Positions 2,803-16,871 of a stretch of 23,409 nucleotides of DNA are shown here, piece by piece. Source of the stretch: a virus. Under the pieces are notes generated by a model. That model had not been told where the DNA came from and did no database searches. It worked only from the letters and a program-made list of their open reading frames with translations. Within the stretch, counting starts at the first letter, position 1. The number at the start of each line of letters is the position of its first letter. The stretch is from IMG/VR virus record IMGVR_UViG_3300036719_002395, positions 1 to 23,409 of that record. One strand, 5' to 3'. Both the position numbers and the translations under genes were made by a program.

Positions 2803-4631
2803 ACGTAGTCCTGGGCCGTGCCGACGTTGTACGCGGCCGCGTTGGTGTTGGCGTTGAACACAGACACGGCGGTGTTCTGCCCGTCCACATCGGTGTTAAA
2901 CCCGAGCGATGCCGGGGCAATGACCGTCTGCGTGGGCGACCACCATTGCCGGCGACCGGACACGGTGCTGTACCCGTTGCTCGTCGCGCCACCACCGTCA
3001 TAGGACTTCAGGGTGCGGGTATAGACCCCGATGAACGTGCGCTGGCCGCCCGTATCAACATCGCCGAAGTTGACCTTCCAATCGTCCTTGACCACCACGA
3101 AGCCCGCCGGGATCGGTCGGAAGATGCGCTGCGGCGGGGTGTTGACCCCCTTGACCGTGGTGACTTCCTCAAGGACCGTGCTTGCCTTGCCCGCCTGGAA
3201 CACAAAGTCGGACCCCTGCGTGTAGAGGGTTTGCAGGCGGTGCATCTTGGTATCGGTATAGACGCTCGTCACCGTCTGCGACCGCTCCACGCCAGCGGGC
3301 TGATTGGCCGCGTTGTTGGTCATGCGCGGCAGCGTGGCGAACGGACCTTGGTTCATGGCCGCATTGGCCGCGTCAAAGTTCGTATCTGGGGCCACCATTG
3401 AGGTGGTCGGAGTGCCAGGGCTGCAATAGTCCGTGATGGCGGTGATGACCGCCGCCACGGGAAGGCTGCTAGCCACGCCCTGATTCTTGGCCGACAGCTC
3501 GTTGTTGTACCAATGCGGGATGGACGCAATGCCCTTGTATCCGCCGTAGGCATCCGGGTATTCGGGACAGGTCCGCGTGACCGTGAAGAATTGACCGATC
3601 AGGTTGGCAAGCGGGACAGGCGGAAGCGTGGTAGATGGGGTTTGATCGCCAGCAAAGGCGTAGCACCGCGCCTGGATCTCCACGCGCACCTTGGACCGCG
3701 TCATCATGTCCTGCTCGGAGAACACGATGCGGTCAAGCTGCGACGAGCGGAACGGGATGCGGGTTTGCGCCAGCACCACCGCTGCCCACATCATGTGGCG
3801 CACATCGCCATTCACCGGACCCTCGAGGTCACAGTTGAACCGCAGCGTGGCAAAGGTCAGGTCGGTACGGGAACGCTCGTAGGTGAATTCGCAGTTACCC
3901 GTCAGCGCGCTGTCCGGGAGCTTGATGCGCGCCTGGGTGTCAACAATGGTGTAGATGAGCGAGTTGCCGCTTTCGTTGTAGGCAAACGTCTGCGACTCAC
4001 GCCGCCAAATGCTGTCATCCGGCGGACGGGTCGGCAGGATGGCCTTACGGAACAGGTCGGCCCAAGGCGCTTTGCCGTTGACTTGGGCAGCGGTGTTGTC
4101 CTCGGCGTAGGTCGTGTCCGCGTTCGTGTTCGACAGGTCAACAACAATGCTGCCCGTGACCGTGCGCGTCATGTGGCCCGCGGCATCAAGAGTGAACGAC
4201 TGCACCCAGCGATGGGACACAATCGGGCAATCGTCCTCCTCGGCCATCGCATGGCCCACGATGGTGAACGTGACCATCGCCGCCTGCCGGCCGCTGATTT
4301 CCGTGACCGTCATGGACATCAAAGGACCACGCAGCGCATCCGGCCCGGAGGACTCGTAGACCGCTTCGGTTGCGCCGTCTGCCGTCACCCAAATCTTCAC
4401 CTCATCGACACGCCCAGGCTCCTTCTTGGTGAGGTTGGCAAGCGTGGTGTAGGTCGAAGTGCCGTAGGACACCAGCGCGGACCCGGAGATGGTGGTCTCG
4501 TAGCGGATCTGCGTGTAGCCGTCCTCCGCGTAGATTGCCCGCGCATCCCACGAGGTGATGTTGGCATACGGAAGCGTGAACGTGTCATCGCCCAGCTTGA
4601 ACGCCACCCATGTATTGCCGTTGGTAGACAT
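2799..4631 (-). CDS. Large tail/baseplate structural protein (610 aa)
   Basis: The 610-residue protein starts at ATG 4631, overlapping the stop of the tape-measure candidate as TGATG. It ends in an ATGA overlap with the 593-residue gene, so the three are likely co-translated. The first roughly 130 residues read as an all-beta domain (WVAFKLGDDTFTLPYANITS, later RYETTISGSALVSYG). The remainder is beta-rich, with several Cys residues and a long Thr/Ser/Asn-rich C-terminal third. No enzyme motif is visible. Size, position and overlaps fit a tail hub or baseplate wedge protein. The exact role cannot be set from sequence. Confidence 0.5.
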   Translation of the reverse strand: MSTNGNTWVAFKLGDDTFTLPYANITSWDARAIYAEDGYTQIRYETTISGSALVSYGTSTYTTLANLTKKEPGRVDEVKIWVTADGATEAVYESSGPDALRGPLMSMTVTEISGRQAAMVTFTIVGHAMAEEDDCPIVSHRWVQSFTLDAAGHMTRTVTGSIVVDLSNTNADTTYAEDNTAAQVNGKAPWADLFRKAILPTRPPDDSIWRRESQTFAYNESGNSLIYTIVDTQARIKLPDSALTGNCEFTYERSRTDLTFATLRFNCDLEGPVNGDVRHMMWAAVVLAQTRIPFRSSQLDRIVFSEQDMMTRSKVRVEIQARCYAFAGDQTPSTTLPPVPLANLIGQFFTVTRTCPEYPDAYGGYKGIASIPHWYNNELSAKNQGVASSLPVAAVITAITDYCSPGTPTTSMVAPDTNFDAANAAMNQGPFATLPRMTNNAANQPAGVERSQTVTSVYTDTKMHRLQTLYTQGSDFVFQAGKASTVLEEVTTVKGVNTPPQRIFRPIPAGFVVVKDDWKVNFGDVDTGGQRTFIGVYTRTLKSYDGGGATSNGYSTVSGRRQWWSPTQTVIAPASLGFNTDVDGQNTAVSVFNANTNAAAYNVGTAQDYV

Positions 4632-5446
4632 CAGAAGCCCTTCATTCCCATGAGTTTCAGATCCGCAAGGAACGGCTGATTGATCGCGCCGTAGTCAATC
4701 TTGGGGTCCGGGGTCTTGCGGTTCAGGGCGCGAAGGTCGCGTGCCATCTCCCTGAACGTGGCAACAATGCCGCCCGCAGGATTCATAAAATCAAAGAGCG
4801 CTTGTCCCTGCTCTCCATAATTGTATCCAACAGCCATACGCGCAAGGGAACTTGATGTACCGCCGTAGGAGGAAAGCTGAACCATCACCGCAACGGCCTC
4901 CGCTGCCTTTGCCATTGCCTCCGTGATTTTCGGCAAATACTCTTTTAGGTTGTCGAGAACGTCGGCAACGTACTTGGTGATTGGGCGAAGAAAGATTGCG
5001 CCCATGCCAGCGAACGCAGATCGGATTTCCACGAACGCACGCTCAATTCGGCCCACCTCGAGCATCTGTGCGCCGATGGCCCCGCCGTACTGAAGTCCCA
5101 TGCGGAAGCGCGTGTTGACCATCGCAATCTGATTCTGCATCTCGGCAAGCTGAATGCCGGGGCTGTAGTCGCGGAGGTCGCTTGCCACCTCAAGCACAAA
5201 GCGATTCAGGGCGAGGAGCGCCTTGCCGACTTCGTTTACCACCTTGGTCATCACCGCAAACACACCAGCCACCGCCGTGAACGCCGTAGATGCAAACGAT
5301 GCGGCCGATGCCATCGCTCCAATATCTTCGGCGGCTTCCGCCATGCCACCTCCACCGTCATCCATATCGCCAACGCCGCTGATGCCTTCGGTTTGGCCGC
5401 CGCCCTGCTCGTTGATGTCGATGACGATGCGTCCAAGGTCTTGCAT
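4631..5446 (-). CDS. Putative short tape measure protein
   Basis: The 271-residue protein starts two bases after the upstream stop. A Gly/Asp-rich N terminus (about residues 1-35) leads into a hydrophobic Ala/Val/Phe-rich helix at about 40-75, then long amphipathic helices. One of these contains DLRDYSPGIQLAEMQNQ, similar to the N-terminal helices of small tape-measure proteins. It lies where a tape measure belongs, after the chaperone pair. Only the terminator candidate intervenes, and the two large tail proteins follow. It is very short for this role: at about 0.15 nm per residue it would specify at most about 40 nm of tail. A membrane-interacting tail-tip protein is an alternative. Confidence 0.45.
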   Translation of the reverse strand: MQDLGRIVIDINEQGGGQTEGISGVGDMDDGGGGMAEAAEDIGAMASAASFASTAFTAVAGVFAVMTKVVNEVGKALLALNRFVLEVASDLRDYSPGIQLAEMQNQIAMVNTRFRMGLQYGGAIGAQMLEVGRIERAFVEIRSAFAGMGAIFLRPITKYVADVLDNLKEYLPKITEAMAKAAEAVAVMVQLSSYGGTSSSLARMAVGYNYGEQGQALFDFMNPAGGIVATFREMARDLRALNRKTPDPKIDYGAINQPFLADLKLMGMKGF

Positions 5447-5448
5447 GG

Positions 5449-5901
5449 TTACAGTCCGTTCTCAAAGGCGCACACGAAGGTCTCCGTGCCGCGCATCCAA
5501 CCAACCAAGTCCTCGGCCGGCTCAACCTGACCGCCGTTGCGCCAGGTCAGCGCGATGGTGAGGATGCCGTTGAGGTCGTTCTGATTGAGCAGCACCCGCA
5601 GCCCGTCGATGAATTGCTCGATGCCATTGGAACCGGAGATGCGCTCCGTGGCCCGGTTGACCGGGTCAAGGAGGCCGCGCCACCACACCACGATGTCGAT
5701 CTTGGCCTCCTGCAAGCCAACGCCGGACCGCCAATGCAGCGCGGTGTCGCCGCCTGGGATGACCTGTACCGCGTACTGCGCGATGGTCTCATCACTCGGC
5801 CGCTCCGACAGGTACACGGCGCTGCCGTAGCCCTCGGTCACCATCCAGTTGGCAATCTCGGTCAGGAGCGCGTTCCACACCGCTGCATTCTGCGTAGCCA
5901 T
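5449..5901 (-). CDS. Putative tail terminator/neck protein
   Basis: The 150-residue protein starts at ATG 5901, overlapping the chaperone fusion stop as TGATG. The mixed alpha/beta pattern includes an N-terminal helix (VWNALLTEIANWMVTEGYG), a central strand KIDIVVWWRG and a helix IEQFIDGLRVLLN. This resembles small tail terminator or DUF1834-like proteins that cap the tail tube. Its place downstream of the chaperones is not the lambda order, where the terminator gene precedes the tube gene. The assignment rests on size, fold pattern and context. Another tail component is possible. Confidence 0.4.
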   Translation of the reverse strand: MATQNAAVWNALLTEIANWMVTEGYGSAVYLSERPSDETIAQYAVQVIPGGDTALHWRSGVGLQEAKIDIVVWWRGLLDPVNRATERISGSNGIEQFIDGLRVLLNQNDLNGILTIALTWRNGGQVEPAEDLVGWMRGTETFVCAFENGL

Positions 5902-6415
5902 CAGCCCACCGCCTTCTGATGCTCAAGGTTCATGCGGATACGGAAGGCGAGGTCGGCATCCCCGGTAGCAAGCGCCACCGTCTGCTGCGCCACCTCTGCC
6001 GATCCCAACGCCATAGCAATGGCCCGTGCCTGAACGATGCTCTGCCGCGCCTCAATCATAGGAATGTTCTGCGCGAGGCCCATAGCAGTCTCCGGGTCAA
6101 AGTCGGTGGGAGGCCGCCCATAGGTCGCCAAGAACACGGCGGCCTCCCGTGTCAGTTTCCCGCGTTCTGTACCGCCTTGCCCAACCGGGCAAAGACCGCA
6201 AACAGCACCTCGTCGGCCGCCTGCTGGGCCACCTCGGGGGTGCGTGCCACGGCTCGGATCGCGTTGGCGATGTCGGCCACGGTCGGCTGTTCGCCGCCGG
6301 CAATGCTGCGCTTCTGCACAGAGGCCACCAGCTCGTTCCATTGGATCACGAGCGCGCCCGTGGGGATGGTGACGCGGAACAGCATCGGGTCGTTGTCTTC
6401 GTTCAGGTCGATCAT
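5901..6415 (-). CDS. Tail assembly chaperone, long -1 frameshift product
   Basis: This is the predicted product of -1 ribosomal frameshifting on GGGAAAC at 6155-6161. Residues 1-87 are read in the frame starting at ATG 6415. The ribosome slips, base 6155 is read twice, and 84 further residues are read to the stop at 5901, giving 171 residues. The downstream part, starting LTREAAVFLATYGRPPTDFD, is helical, has no good start codon of its own, and is only sensible as an extension. This matches the lambda G/G-T type of chaperone, in which a minority frameshift product binds the tape measure and recruits tube subunits. The location between tail tube and tape measure is the standard one. Confidence 0.8.
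6152..6415 (-). CDS. Tail assembly chaperone, short product
   Basis: This 87-residue acidic, helical protein is made when ribosomes do not slip. It terminates at TGA 6154-6152, directly after the slippery heptamer. The start ATG at 6415 overlaps the tail tube stop as ATGA. Residues 1-35 carry a beta-rich start (MLFRVTIPTGALVIQWNELV) and the rest is helical. By analogy with lambda gpG, this would be the abundant form that coats the tape measure before tube polymerisation. It is not found in finished virions of the known systems. Confidence 0.75.
   Translation of the reverse strand: MIDLNEDNDPMLFRVTIPTGALVIQWNELVASVQKRSIAGGEQPTVADIANAIRAVARTPEVAQQAADEVLFAVFARLGKAVQNAGN
6155..6161 (-). other. 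-1 ribosomal slippery heptamer G GGA AAC
   Basis: On the minus strand, G GGA AAC is followed at once by UGA. It fits X XXY YYZ with X=G, Y=A and Z=C, with codon boundaries in the zero frame of the short chaperone. It closely resembles the GGGAAAG site of lambda G-T. I saw no obvious strong stem-loop directly downstream, but the adjacent stop codon may promote slippage. Confidence 0.8.
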
Positions 6416-6903
6416 GTGGATGCCGAGGTAGCAAGGACGTTGGTGGTCGGATCGGGGATAGCCTTGAAAGTCAAGCCCAGGCGCTGCTCTACGTTGCCGA
6501 AGTTGCTGTGGTTGATCGCGTCACCCATCAGCAGGCAAGTGGAGAACGTGTACGAGGTCTTGCCCGCCGTCAGCGGCAGGATCTTCACCCCAAACGTGCC
6601 GCTGCCGTTGATGAGCAGGCGACCGACCGTGGTGGTGTATTCCGCGCCGCGCTCCCGCACGGCAAGGGCCGTCAGGTACGCAGCGTCCCACTTGACCAAA
6701 GTGCAGGAAATGACCGCCGTGGTGTTCTGAAGCACCAGTTCCGCGGGAGCCGCGCCGGAGGCCACGGTCTTGATCTCGTGGACGTTGTCGGTGTAGGTGA
6801 TCTGCGGGAGGCTGTCGTTGTCGGTATACCCGAGGTCAACGTAGCCAGCTCCCAGGTTCACCTGGATCTTGGTTGGGCCTGCGACGAAAATTGCGGTAGC
6901 CAT
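6412..6903 (-). CDS. Putative major tail tube protein
   Basis: The 163-residue protein starts at ATG 6903 with AGGAAG upstream. It is a mostly beta protein, with strand pairs such as YVDLGYTDNDSLPQITYTDN, a middle segment TTAVISCTLVKWD and a C-terminal LGLTFKAIPDP strand. This is the pattern of small tail tube subunits, which form hexameric rings. Immediate placement before the chaperone pair supports this strongly, since the tube gene normally precedes the frameshifted chaperones. There is no signal peptide or enzymatic motif. Confidence 0.6.
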   Translation of the reverse strand: MATAIFVAGPTKIQVNLGAGYVDLGYTDNDSLPQITYTDNVHEIKTVASGAAPAELVLQNTTAVISCTLVKWDAAYLTALAVRERGAEYTTTVGRLLINGSGTFGVKILPLTAGKTSYTFSTCLLMGDAINHSNFGNVEQRLGLTFKAIPDPTTNVLATSAST

Positions 6904-11140: not shown

Positions 11141-11445
11141 TAGATGAACACCCGGTACGGGACGGACGGCTCGGGCGTAAAGGTCGGCAGAGCCTCCACC
11201 TGTTCCTCGGTCAGCTCAATGGTCGCCCGGATGTTCGCGTGGTAGCGGGGGTCGCCAGGGCGCACGATCACGCCTTCCTCGTCCACGACCGCCGGGATCG
11301 GCCCGATGCGGTCGACATAGCAGCCGGGGACGGGCATGAGCGCGATCTCGCCCTCGCCCTGATCGACCTCGACCAGCAGTCCTGCGGCTTCCAGCGCATC
11401 GTCCATCTGCGCCTCGGTGTCGGTGCGGAGCATGTAGTCGGTCAT
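11140..11445 (-). CDS. Small acidic protein of unknown function
   Basis: The 101-residue protein starts in an ATGA overlap with the fibre-like gene and ends in a TAATG overlap with the protease gene, so it is embedded in the operon. It opens with a helix (TDTEAQMDDALEAAGLLVEV), has a hydrophobic beta-like centre (IALMPVPGCYVDRIGPIPAV), an IVRPGDPRYHANIRATIELT segment and ends PYRVFI. It is rich in Glu and Asp. Similar short proteins with a YHANI/RA motif are common in phages near fibre or structural genes, but I do not know a function. Confidence 0.5.
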   Translation of the reverse strand: MTDYMLRTDTEAQMDDALEAAGLLVEVDQGEGEIALMPVPGCYVDRIGPIPAVVDEEGVIVRPGDPRYHANIRATIELTEEQVEALPTFTPEPSVPYRVFI

Positions 11446-12710
11446 AGGGTGGTCAGGGAGTTAAGGGTTGCTTGCGGGAGAGCCGTGGGCCAGAACTTGA
11501 ATGACTGAAAATGCTGTCTGCCGGTCAAACCGCCGAAAGGACTTCCCGCATCATTTCCAAAGCCGATAATGGTTTGGTTGAATGATGTGATTGCTTGCGT
11601 ATTGCTATTTGCAGTCGCGCCATTGCTGGAAACCAGTTGCGATCCGTTCGTTACGCTGATCGCAAACTTTCGCGCAACGCCATAGGTCAACGAGTTGGGG
11701 CCGAACGACTCGGTGGCAGTCGTGCCATTACTTGTGCGATGAGCCGTGTTGTATGTGCCGTCGTTGTAATAGTACGAACGCGATCCCGAATCGCTTGGCC
11801 CTCTGATGCAGACCATTGGAGGGAATGAACCAGACTGACGGCTCTGCGGACTGCACGACCACAACATCGAATAGCCAGTCGTGATGCCAGTAAACCACGA
11901 CGAGAAGTTTGTCCCGGTCATGCTGCACTCGTCCGCATTCCTCGTCCCCGTGCTTGCCCCGGTCGGGATGTATGACGATGCGCCGGAGCCAGCTTCTATT
12001 TGGCATCCATAAACAAGAACATCGGCGGTCTCATCGTTGCCGATGATGTTGTCCCAAAGCATGATTTGCGCGTTTGCGTCTGTACCAGACAGCGTGTAGG
12101 TGTATTGAAAACGCTTCCATGTCGTAGTAACGACGCAGTTAAATCCGGCAGGATCGGCACCGATGCGAAGTCCAACATTCTGCGTAGCCGCACCACCGCT
12201 CGCGGTGTTTGCCTTCATCCACACCGACATGGTGTACGGTTGTGACGCGGAACCTACTGCCGAATTCCTAATGCGACTAAATGTGCCGCCCGTCTTGTTG
12301 AAGGTAATACGAGTAACCGTTGATGCACCATCCGGGCCAGTCTGCGAAACAGTAGAGACTGCTGGATTTGCCGCGCCGCTGTTGTCAAGCAACCAAACCG
12401 CATTGGAAAAATCGTTGCTATATGTCAGCAGGCTGCTTGCACTCCCCTCAATCAGCAGCCCACGAGGCGTGGGTGGCGTAGTGGTGGGGTCGTAGTCGAA
12501 GCGGGGGGTGTTGATTGCCGCGCTGGTGACGTAGCCGCTGCTGTTGATGTACGTTCCGGTAGTGCTGCGCGTGAACGTCAGGCGCGAGTCAAGGACACCC
12601 GTGGTGAAATCAAGCGACAGCGTGGAACCATCGCCGGCACGAGTCATCAGCTTGCTCGCAACGGACGAGCCGCTGATCCGTGACATCCTTGGGCGGTTGG
12701 CGCGGTTCAT
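11442..12710 (-). CDS. Fibre-like protein with lectin/LamG-type domains
   Basis: The 422-residue beta-rich protein starts in a TGATG overlap at 12710. Residues 25-95 carry a segment widespread in phage fibre and head-fibre proteins: a beta start (LSLDFTTG), LTFTRSTTGTYINSSGYV, then RFDYDPTTTPPTPRGLLIEG and LLTYSNDFSNAVW. Residues 100-250 resemble a carbohydrate-binding jelly roll (SVWMKANTASG, TTTWKRFQYTYTLSG). Residues 270-415 resemble a concanavalin/LamG fold (FSSWFTGITTGYSMLWSCSP, RKFAISVTNGSQ, FQSFKFWPTALPQATL). The lectin folds suggest glycan binding. It is encoded in the head block, so a head fibre is as likely as a tail-associated receptor binder. Confidence 0.55.
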   Translation of the reverse strand: MNRANRPRMSRISGSSVASKLMTRAGDGSTLSLDFTTGVLDSRLTFTRSTTGTYINSSGYVTSAAINTPRFDYDPTTTPPTPRGLLIEGSASSLLTYSNDFSNAVWLLDNSGAANPAVSTVSQTGPDGASTVTRITFNKTGGTFSRIRNSAVGSASQPYTMSVWMKANTASGGAATQNVGLRIGADPAGFNCVVTTTWKRFQYTYTLSGTDANAQIMLWDNIIGNDETADVLVYGCQIEAGSGASSYIPTGASTGTRNADECSMTGTNFSSWFTGITTGYSMLWSCSPQSRQSGSFPPMVCIRGPSDSGSRSYYYNDGTYNTAHRTSNGTTATESFGPNSLTYGVARKFAISVTNGSQLVSSNGATANSNTQAITSFNQTIIGFGNDAGSPFGGLTGRQHFQSFKFWPTALPQATLNSLTTL

Positions 12711-14954: not shown

Positions 14955-16871
14955 TTATGCATTCACAAATCCGGGATCGGGAATCTGCCGCGTGTCGATG
15001 AGCTGCTGGCGCTTCCCGTTGTGCCGCTTCAGCGCGGCGTAGTTCACGTTGCCATTCACATCCGTCCACCCGCGCTCGAGGGCGCGAGCCGCCGGCACGG
15101 GTATCAGCGCGCAGCGGCAATTACTCACGATCAAACCGTCAGCGAGTAGAATGCCGCTGCTGCTTCGGAAGTCATACACATGCCCCTCCCACTTAGAAAC
15201 AACATCGACATCGACAACATCGTCAAGCGTTACCGTGCCGGCGAAAGCACCAACCAAATCGCCAAATCGCTCGGCGTATCTCGTGGTGCGATTGATCGCC
15301 GACTCCTCAAGCGAGGCATCAAGCTCCGCACGCAGGGGGAGGCCGAAACGCTCAAATGGAGCGGAATCAAGCAAGATCCGGCTGCCGTCAAACGGCAATG
15401 CGGGGCGGCTTGGGCTGCCGTTCGTGGCCGAAAGCGAAGCATGAACGAATTGATCCGATGCGCCAAATCCAAGGCTCGGCTGACCAGCCCCGACGAGCTG
15501 CCGCTCTTGGAGGCTATTCGCGCCCTGGGCGTTGAACACATCGAACACCAGTACGCGGTCGGTCCTTACAACGTCGATTTCGCCATGCGCGCTCATGGCA
15601 TCGCCATCGAACATATGGCCGTTGGCCTTCGCGCTGACAGTCGTACGGGTTACAGCCTTCGCCGCGAGCGCGTTGAATATCTGCAAGGCCGTGGGCTGCA
15701 AGTAGTTGCCCTGGTTGTATCCAAGTCCTTCCGCCGCGTTCACGGGCTTGACGCTGCGGCGCAGCATCTTGTCGCCAACCTTGACAGCGTGGGCCGGAAT
15801 CCATCCCCGGTCGGTCAGTATTGGGTGATTGGCTGTCGCTGCGATAGTGCCACCCGACCGCGTATTGAGGTGTACCAGCGCACCGCAATATGACGTACGG
15901 AAGCCCATGTCCACGGCCCCCTCAACAGGTTGCCAAGACGGGAAACAGTTGAATCCGCACGGCGGTGCGATCCCCTGGCGGTCGAACATCTCCATCGTGC
16001 CGATGTAGCCGTCCAAGCCCTGATGCGTGGGCCGCGTCCGGTTGTCCCCGGTCGCGCTGTATTCCACCAGCGGCACGAACGCCTGCACCTTCGGTTCGCG
16101 CAGGGTCTCCGCAAGCCCTTCCGTGGCCGCCCGGTTGGTGTTCGTGCGTAGCACGGTCTCAAGCCGCGCCGTGGTCAGGTGCGTACCCGTGACCATCTGC
16201 GTGGTGGTCACGAAGTCCCCGAGGTTCATCTTGCGTATCCACTTGCCCACCACGGACTTGCCGGGTTTCTCTTCGATGACGCGGGCAATCAGCTCCTGCG
16301 TCTGCCGCGTCTGCTTGGGGTTCATGGCGGTCACAAAGAACGTGCCGTCCGTGATCCGCTTGGCCGTGGAGATTTGCCCACCCTGGGGGTTGACCGTGAT
16401 GCCGCGCAGGAGCGAATCAAGCACCGGGTTACGGGCGCGCATATCGGGCAGGGCGTTGTCGCGCTCGTGGTCGGCCACCTCGCCGCCGCTGCGCTGGGCG
16501 GCCTCAATCAGCACATCCCAATCCGTGCGCGAGATCGGCACGCGGGTGCGGAACCAGTTGGCGATGGGGGCGAGGAAATCGCGGCCGAACCCCTCCAGCA
16601 CAACGCCCGTTTCAAGGCGGTCGAAGGTCAGGGCCGTGTTGTCCTCGAGCATCCCCGCCACGGCCTCGTCCGGGATCTTGGCCTTGTCGATGGCCTGCCG
16701 TGCGCCAAAGAGCCACGATGCCATCAGAAGGGCCGACGTTGCCTCGTGGAACGTCTGCCAATGCTCCGCGCCCGTTTCCCCCAGTACCTGGGCTGCGATG
16801 CCCTTGCGGTACGCCTGCTGCGCCTCCTTGAGGACGCTGCGGAGGTGCTTGTCTAGCGCGGCGCGGTTCAT
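14955..16871 (-). CDS. MuF-like minor head protein precursor, intein-containing
   Basis: The 638-codon frame starts in an ATGA overlap with the portal gene at 16868-16871. Removing the intein (residues 309-584) leaves 362 residues. The N terminus (1-200) is helical. The MuF core follows: VLRTNTNRAATEGLAETLRE, VEYSATGDNRTRPTHQGLDG, then GIAPPCGFN joined after splicing to CRCALIPV. In this family the core ends in the same Asn-Cys-Arg-Cys-x-x-x-x-Pro motif. MuF proteins are few-copy head proteins bound near the portal and often ejected with DNA. The C-terminal 54 residues are basic and end with IPDPGFVNA. Splicing is required for an intact core motif. Confidence 0.85.
   Translation of the reverse strand: MNRAALDKHLRSVLKEAQQAYRKGIAAQVLGETGAEHWQTFHEATSALLMASWLFGARQAIDKAKIPDEAVAGMLEDNTALTFDRLETGVVLEGFGRDFLAPIANWFRTRVPISRTDWDVLIEAAQRSGGEVADHERDNALPDMRARNPVLDSLLRGITVNPQGGQISTAKRITDGTFFVTAMNPKQTRQTQELIARVIEEKPGKSVVGKWIRKMNLGDFVTTTQMVTGTHLTTARLETVLRTNTNRAATEGLAETLREPKVQAFVPLVEYSATGDNRTRPTHQGLDGYIGTMEMFDRQGIAPPCGFNCFPSWQPVEGAVDMGFRTSYCGALVHLNTRSGGTIAATANHPILTDRGWIPAHAVKVGDKMLRRSVKPVNAAEGLGYNQGNYLQPTALQIFNALAAKAVTRTTVSAKANGHMFDGDAMSAHGEIDVVRTDRVLVFDVFNAQGANSLQERQLVGAGQPSLGFGASDQFVHASLSATNGSPSRPALPFDGSRILLDSAPFERFGLPLRAELDASLEESAINRTTRYAERFGDLVGAFAGTVTLDDVVDVDVVSKWEGHVYDFRSSSGILLADGLIVSNCRCALIPVPAARALERGWTDVNGNVNYAALKRHNGKRQQLIDTRQIPDPGFVNA
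15147..15171 (+). promoter_or_regulatory. Candidate promoter -10 and RBS for the antisense nuclease
   Basis: TAGAAT at 15147-15152 differs from TATAAT at one base. It lies 27 bases before the start codon, leaving room for a short leader containing GGAAG at 15167-15171. No good -35 box is seen at the normal spacing (TTACTC at 15121 is too far, 20 bases). The element is just inside the intein edge, so it would move with it. Weak evidence. Confidence 0.25.
15180..15893 (+). CDS. Antisense-nested HTH-Vsr/DUF559-like homing endonuclease
   Basis: This 237-residue plus-strand gene lies wholly inside the intein coding sequence, 60 bp from its C-terminal boundary and 54 bp from its N-terminal one. 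ATG 15180 has GGAAG (15167-15171) eight bases upstream. Residues 11-48 form a helix-turn-helix (STNQIAKSLGVSRGAIDRRL), then KRGIKLRTQGEA, a linker common in HTH-type homing nucleases. Residues 104-183 match a Vsr/DUF559-like core: helix with Glu111, Gln124, VGPYNVDFA with Asp133, GIAIEHM with Glu144, then RRERVEYLQGRGLQVVALVV. The Trp-His often following the second acidic residue is absent. The last 45 residues may be non-essential. It probably cuts intein-free MuF genes. Confidence 0.8.
   Translation: MPLPLRNNIDIDNIVKRYRAGESTNQIAKSLGVSRGAIDRRLLKRGIKLRTQGEAETLKWSGIKQDPAAVKRQCGAAWAAVRGRKRSMNELIRCAKSKARLTSPDELPLLEAIRALGVEHIEHQYAVGPYNVDFAMRAHGIAIEHMAVGLRADSRTGYSLRRERVEYLQGRGLQVVALVVSKSFRRVHGLDAAAQHLVANLDSVGRNPSPVGQYWVIGCRCDSATRPRIEVYQRTAI

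Follow-up and report, generated by a model that had tools for sequence, protein, structure and literature searches.

The tail gene cluster of the viral genome described here, which belongs to a phage from environmental DNA, very probably uses a -1 programmed ribosomal frameshift of the lambda G/GT type to produce two forms of a likely tail assembly chaperone, the type being assigned from gene position and from the frameshift signal. The window, which denotes the whole stretch of DNA that was analysed, is a virus record of 23,409 bases and contains a Mu-like portal (about 24% identity to Mu- and D3112-like portals) along with a terminase match, a capsid protein, head-tail connectors and tail genes. 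The slip region lies on the minus strand at 6164-6152 and reads CGC GGGAAAC TGA, so that a short open reading frame, ORF1, ends with the codons GCG GGA AAC TGA. The features that bear on the frameshift, in the order of transcription, are as follows.

6412 to 6903, minus strand: tail tube protein, the upstream neighbour (Pfam PF25681, Phage_TTP_17)
6152 to 6415, minus strand: ORF1, the short form, a gpG-like tail assembly chaperone as judged by position; 87 aa, with an ATG at 6415 and the ending NAGN followed by the stop
6155 to 6161, minus strand: slippery heptamer G_GGA_AAC, an in-frame XXXYYYZ kept in relatives
6152 to 6154, minus strand: UGA stop of ORF1, abutting the heptamer (intercodon position)
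6138 to 6148, minus strand: 5' arm of the hairpin, GGGAGGCCGCC, starting 6 nt after the heptamer
6108 to 6118, minus strand: 3' arm of the hairpin, GGCGGCCTCCC, pairing with 6148-6138
5901 to 6158, minus strand: -1 frame extension, gpT-like as judged by position; 84 residues after the slip, for a predicted fusion of 171 aa
5449 to 5901, minus strand: downstream neighbour of 150 aa, conserved in place, whose ATG overlaps the TGA of the extension
4631 to 5446, minus strand: putative short tape measure protein of 271 aa, proposed from length variation and a family match

In the proposed mechanism, most ribosomes would stop at the UGA after the final Gly-Asn and release the short chaperone. A minority, delayed by the hairpin, would re-pair their tRNAs from GGA-AAC to GGG-AAA, bypass the stop and add the residues of the extension to yield the fusion. 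By analogy with lambda, the segment shared by both proteins would be the one that binds the tape measure protein, recruitment of the tail tube protein would fall to the extension, and the ratio of short to long forms would be set by the frameshift rate.

Several elements of this arrangement had been recognized in an earlier note made from the sequence of the window, and they hold up. GGGAAAC abuts the TGA at 6161-6152 on the minus strand, at the end of the short open reading frame, and in translation the -1 frame stays open for 84 residues to the stop at 5901. It begins with the codons CTG ACA CGG GAG, and its residues after the Gly-Asn run from LTREAAVF to KAVG. Standard gene calling was expected to misplace the extension, and the mechanical ORF caller did give this frame a TTG start at 6434. 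The extension was also described as helical, which can be said with moderate confidence, as the AlphaFold2 model places helices at residues 2-13, 22-51, 54-65 and 68-84 of 85, with a mean pLDDT of 77.9 and a pTM of 0.43. The model of ORF1 has a pLDDT of 87.5 and a pTM of 0.77.

The evidence for the frameshift comes from relatives of the window, all of which are uncultured IMG/VR loci. They were retrieved with the capsid protein, the tail tube protein, the extension and the 150-aa neighbour as queries; five of the scans took the best 80 loci of 118, 101, 101, 113 and 127 confirmed, so more distant relatives are under-sampled. Many loci are one contig retrieved repeatedly, and counts therefore refer to distinct sequences. 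The first set comprises loci encoding the extension and provides 63 distinct junctions, the window's own among them. The second was assembled so that cases would be selected independently of the extension itself: of 202 loci retrieved via the flanking genes, 186 match both flanks and give 59 distinct junctions (34 different 67-base stretches), while the 16 loci that lack a match to one flanking gene were left out. The sets overlap, with 49 of the 59 junctions sharing their 67 site bases with the first set and 10 being new. Their union consists of 79 distinct sequences of 267 bases, or 41 that are non-redundant at 90%. One count dropped 4 of 142 loci in which the ORF1 frame ran off the contig end, and one dropped 3 of 53 groups in which the extension or the upstream edge was incomplete.

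Within the window, the heptamer by itself would not exclude chance. GGGAAAC occurs seven times where 2.95 occurrences are expected, a number that 6 of 100 shuffles reach, and an in-frame XXXYYYZ is present at 11 of 6301 codon positions, six of them with A or T as Y. Conservation in relatives does exclude it, because the heptamer is kept in all junctions of both sets and is accompanied by a co-varying hairpin. Specifically, an in-frame XXXYYYZ heptamer is found in 63/63 distinct junctions of the first set (GGGAAAC in 45, GGGAAAA in 17 and AAAAAAC in one). All 59 junctions of the flank-retrieved set possess a heptamer, a nearby stop and a -1 frame that is open for 60 codons or more. Thus X_XXY_YYZ stands in the right frame before the 0-frame stop in the window and throughout both overlapping sets. 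The codon that holds the first base of the heptamer varies (GCG, TCG, CAG, GTG, AAG and CTG, with TCA in the AAAAAAC case). It changes some 14 times on the tree, a rough count since long branches join uncertainly, and its third base is always the one that the heptamer needs (G, or A in the AAAAAAC row). What is conserved is the ability to slip, not a fixed string of letters.

The -1 frame is open and conserved as protein but possesses no conserved start of its own. The residues just after the slip are strongly conserved among relatives, and for the extension dN is lower than dS in seven of eight pairs of the window with a relative, the eighth having no usable dS. Across eight pairs dN is below dS in both frames, although many dS values are saturated. 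In 11 of the 63 junctions only three codons of the -1 frame are open before the slip. A start codon between the last -1 stop and the slip is absent from 25 junctions, and 12 have no -1 start codon from that stop through the tenth codon past the slip. As starts are this sparse, yet the residues after the slip are conserved, slippage by ribosomes at the heptamer is the one route into the -1 frame that by itself accounts for all the relatives. The earlier note had named relatives with a second-frame start codon and no slippery site as a contrary case; every junction examined has the heptamer, with the caveat that some -1 frame start codon lies upstream of it in 38 of 63.

Those 38 upstream starts are one reason to consider that the two frames are separately translated genes, the second of which starts alone or by re-initiation at the stop. 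In the window, candidate starts would be a CTG overlapping the TGA, a GTG 17 nt, a TTG 23 nt and an ATG about 71 nt downstream of it. The GTG and TTG lie behind a GGGAGG that resembles a ribosome-binding site, and the ATG, at codon 25 of the extension, is found in 55 of the 63 junctions. However, the GTG at codon 7 recurs in only 7/63 and the TTG at codon 9 in 19/63, and a dozen junctions are devoid of any start from the last stop through codon 10. The residues before codon 25 (K..R....F.A.YGR.P) belong to the invariant ones of 15 aligned members and look translated. Moreover, separate starts leave the conservation of both heptamer and hairpin unexplained. Because the start codons at the junction are not conserved, separate initiation was rejected and is regarded as very improbable. 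Slippage by RNA polymerase, which would yield the fused frame at the level of transcription, can be dismissed with near certainty. A single relative (L264) has AAAAAAC and might permit it, whereas 78 of the 79 sequences contain GGGAAAC or GGGAAAA and no long run of a single base, and a co-varying hairpin at this distance from the heptamer fits ribosomes.

This hairpin provides the strongest evidence for ribosomal frameshifting, and it was overlooked in the earlier note. RNA structures that stimulate frameshifting are usually found about 5-9 nt downstream of the slip site, and the stem here begins 6 nt after the heptamer, with arms that co-vary; stimulation is its presumed role. In the window it is an 11-pair stem whose fold has an energy of -27.0 kcal/mol (z -3.51), and none of 200 shuffles is as stable. 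Nevertheless, stability alone is indecisive: equal or greater stability is reached by 14 of 2001 coding windows in this contig, and 23 relatives folded singly have z values from -3.40 to +0.22 against mononucleotide shuffles, many of them weak.

Covariation decides the matter. Among 22 representatives, 84.7% of cells are paired, compared with 46.7-66.5% when one arm is slid. Three column pairs are intact in 22/22 while their bases differ: 17-51 as GC, CG or AU; 18-50 as AU, GC or GU; and 19-49 as GC, UA or AU. The covariation score of these representatives is above that of all 500 shuffles, as are three of five measures; the other two fall within the shuffles, with changes on both sides reached by 144/500 and further pair types by 266/500. 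The same hairpin core is recovered by RNAalifold when no structure is given. When every pair of columns was scanned without guidance, across 267 columns in 34 non-redundant sequences (one of the 63 was dropped for an incomplete flank), it proved to be the sole helix of at least five pairs at 80% pairing. Its pairs rank first, third and fifth by compensatory changes, and ranks two and four are taken by pairs whose neighbours pair poorly. On a quick tree the variable core pairs change state 6, 12 and 11 times, counts that are again rough, yet they remain paired in 40, 41 and 40 of the 41 non-redundant sequences. Pairs toward the outer and inner ends are less well kept (14-54 in 25/41, 23-45 in 19/41), and an A-C mismatch stands at 16-52 in 3 of the 79 sequences. 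Both arms also code for protein in the -1 frame, and a Met in the 3' arm goes with Ala-Ser in the 5' arm in 7/7 non-redundant sequences. A pseudoknot was considered and rejected, there being no second helix of at least five pairs at 80% pairing in the 267 columns. The hairpin matches no known RNA family in Rfam at gathering scores.

The position of the 0-frame stop is a further constant of the group. It follows the heptamer at 0 nt in 40 and at 3 nt in 23 of the 63 junctions and, among all 79 distinct sequences, at 0 nt in 46 and at 3 nt, or one sense codon, in 33. The stop itself is TGA in 42, TAA in 29 and TAG in 8. Its distance changed about three times on the quick tree and twice on a careful one, on which one sequence (L263) seems to have arrived at 0 nt separately from the main group, the long branches again leaving these numbers approximate. 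This closeness is unusual beside other phage sites, for which mean stop distances of 26 nt in the SEA-PHAGES set and 36 nt in the Xu set are given (PMC10274946).

The earlier note proposed that the abutting stop promotes ribosome pausing. This part of its account is not supported, as one sense codon intervenes in 33 of the 79 sequences and the published tests point the other way. In those tests, frameshifting fell when the codon that follows the HIV-1 slip site was exchanged for a stop (PMC4373837). In a bacterial system, with a construct that had no stem-loop, a stop decreased frameshifting and raised RF2 abolished it, and in mammalian cells a stop after the slip site caused a fall of about 70%, for which the authors urge caution about the reporter (PMC4373837). 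Most likely, then, the abutting stop would act as a competitor that sets release factor against slippage and holds the rate low, not as a stimulator. It is a possible but rather improbable further proposal that the stop at 0 or 3 nt serves this clade as a built-in brake, through which the ratio of short to long forms would follow the supply of release factor in the host and the output of the next gene would be set as well. Since the stop of the extension overlaps the start of that gene, the same event would also set the level of its low-copy product, which is probably a tail terminator. A rival to the brake, not to the frameshift, is that the stop came to lie beside the heptamer by chance, or merely because the short form has to terminate ahead of the hairpin, and leaves the rate unaffected. 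This is a serious possibility, though somewhat short of an even chance. It accords with the stop falling one codon later in 33/79 and with the far more distant stops of other phage sites (PMC10274946). Against it, none of the 79 sequences has the stop anywhere but 0 or 3 nt from the heptamer, even though the stop codon itself has changed and the distance has done so a few times.

Gene order points to a tail assembly chaperone. Among the 12 members of the tail tube family, five match PF25681, with a best E of 2.1e-7, and the copy in the window matches at E 2.7e-4, below the curated cut-off. Two of the 12 members in the same alignment match phrog_2175, a protein with an Ig domain (best E 1.2e-6). 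On the other side, the 150-aa gene is probably the tail terminator, as suggested by its position and sequence; none of 11 members of its family matches PHROG at E 0.01, and a PDB sequence search gave no match. In 57 of the 59 flank-retrieved junctions the end of the extension and the beginning of the following gene overlap, by 1, 4 or 8 nt, with starts placed from tblastn. The gene two places downstream of the frameshift pair probably encodes the tape measure protein, because the 16 aligned members differ in length (250-379 aa) and one of them matches the tape measure family phrog_991 (E 2.9e-4). Its neighbours vary much less in length. A tape measure of 271 aa, within that range, suggests short tails of varying length. 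In 186/186 loci that match both the tail tube gene and the 150-aa gene, ORF1 is found between them, which places it between the tail tube gene and the putative tape measure gene, with one gene separating the frameshift pair from the latter.

The name of tail chaperone, which the earlier note had used, is supported by this gene position and by the frameshift signal, and not by protein homology from family or sequence searches. No useful Pfam or PHROG family was found for either half of the frameshifted pair, and the ORF1 fold matches labelled tail assembly chaperone are weak, so the chaperone role is a probable one, read from position and signal. For ORF1, a PDB sequence search returned one match (8qaf_A, named sc-apCC-8, E 0.021), and a PDB fold search none at E <= 0.001. 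Its best viral fold match is a protein without a name (E 2.9e-4, TM 0.79); among the matches listed, those labelled tail assembly chaperone have TM 0.42-0.50 and E 0.43-1.9. Matches of ORF1 by tblastn in four Xanthomonas records (E 0.8-0.9), two of which are annotated as terminase small subunit, were attributed to chance. Two scans of genome contigs for a host or prophage confirmed no relative of the extension or the capsid protein. Likewise, tblastn of 50,697 phage records gave no match to the extension, tail tube, capsid or 150-aa proteins, and blastn of the tail tube against isolated phages gave none.

The heptamer of lambda itself is GGGAAAG, of the same class as that found here. In lambda gpG/gpGT, a -1 frameshift occurs near the end of a small tail gene (PMC5009743), and in the window as well the shift near the end of such a gene would fuse a -1 frame extension to it. 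The arrangement differs from that of lambda in that 0 or 3 nt separate heptamer and stop and that a conserved hairpin lies downstream, and no sequence similarity to lambda was shown. G_GGA_AAC is the heptamer of the archaeal virus HCTV-1 (PMC5009743). A precedent is Burkholderia phage KL1, where the gene for the short tail protein gp18 ends in GGGAAAC followed at once by TGA, reported as a predicted frameshift into gp19 (PMC3483164). The KL1 record, JF939047, contains the same decamer and annotates the pair as a joined gene; as in the window, a single gene separates it from the tape measure gene. In contrast, the proteins have no detectable relation (best E 0.012 over 48 residues in a two-sequence database), and the downstream RNA of KL1 folds weakly, at -7.8 kcal/mol compared with -27.0 in the window. 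Heptamers of the same kinds are known from another phage group, that of phiCbK, whose chaperones have AAAAAAC in most cases and GGGAAAC in one (PMC3556154). Measured frameshifting amounts to 6% and 7% in two genes that belong to an HK97-like cluster of tail chaperones (PMC3711429). GGGAAAC also serves as a site in a polerovirus (PMC3719023). Published eukaryotic cases share a stop directly after the slip site, although their ribosomes are eukaryotic and the genes are other ones. The literature search found no paper on a stop codon immediately downstream of a slip site and none on a tail assembly chaperone frameshift with covariation. Overall, the mechanism has long been known and GGGAAAC-TGA in a tail gene was already in print for KL1 (PMC3483164), while the chaperone family is new and well supported.

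These results add a family of frameshifted tail chaperones that is backed by RNA covariation, beyond the motif alone. They would allow gene callers to treat both frames as one joined gene in dozens of IMG/VR contigs. In addition, the family offers a natural comparison, between stops at 0 and at 3 nt and among UGA, UAA and UAG, for the effect of a stop on the rate of frameshifting in bacteria.

Other parts of the window contain further features of note, all on the minus strand unless stated. The gene at 20932-21885 matches Pfam DruA (Druantia) at E 2.1e-14, in a phage contig. The Mu-F-like head protein at 14955-16871 contains an internal weak match to inteins (HINT) below the curated cut-offs, and antisense to it, on the plus strand at 15180-15893, lies a 237-aa open reading frame with helix-turn-helix matches. 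Finally, the gene at 11442-12710 has a weak match to the carbohydrate-binding family CBM_4_9 (E 0.003, below the curated cut-off) and may encode a receptor-binding protein.
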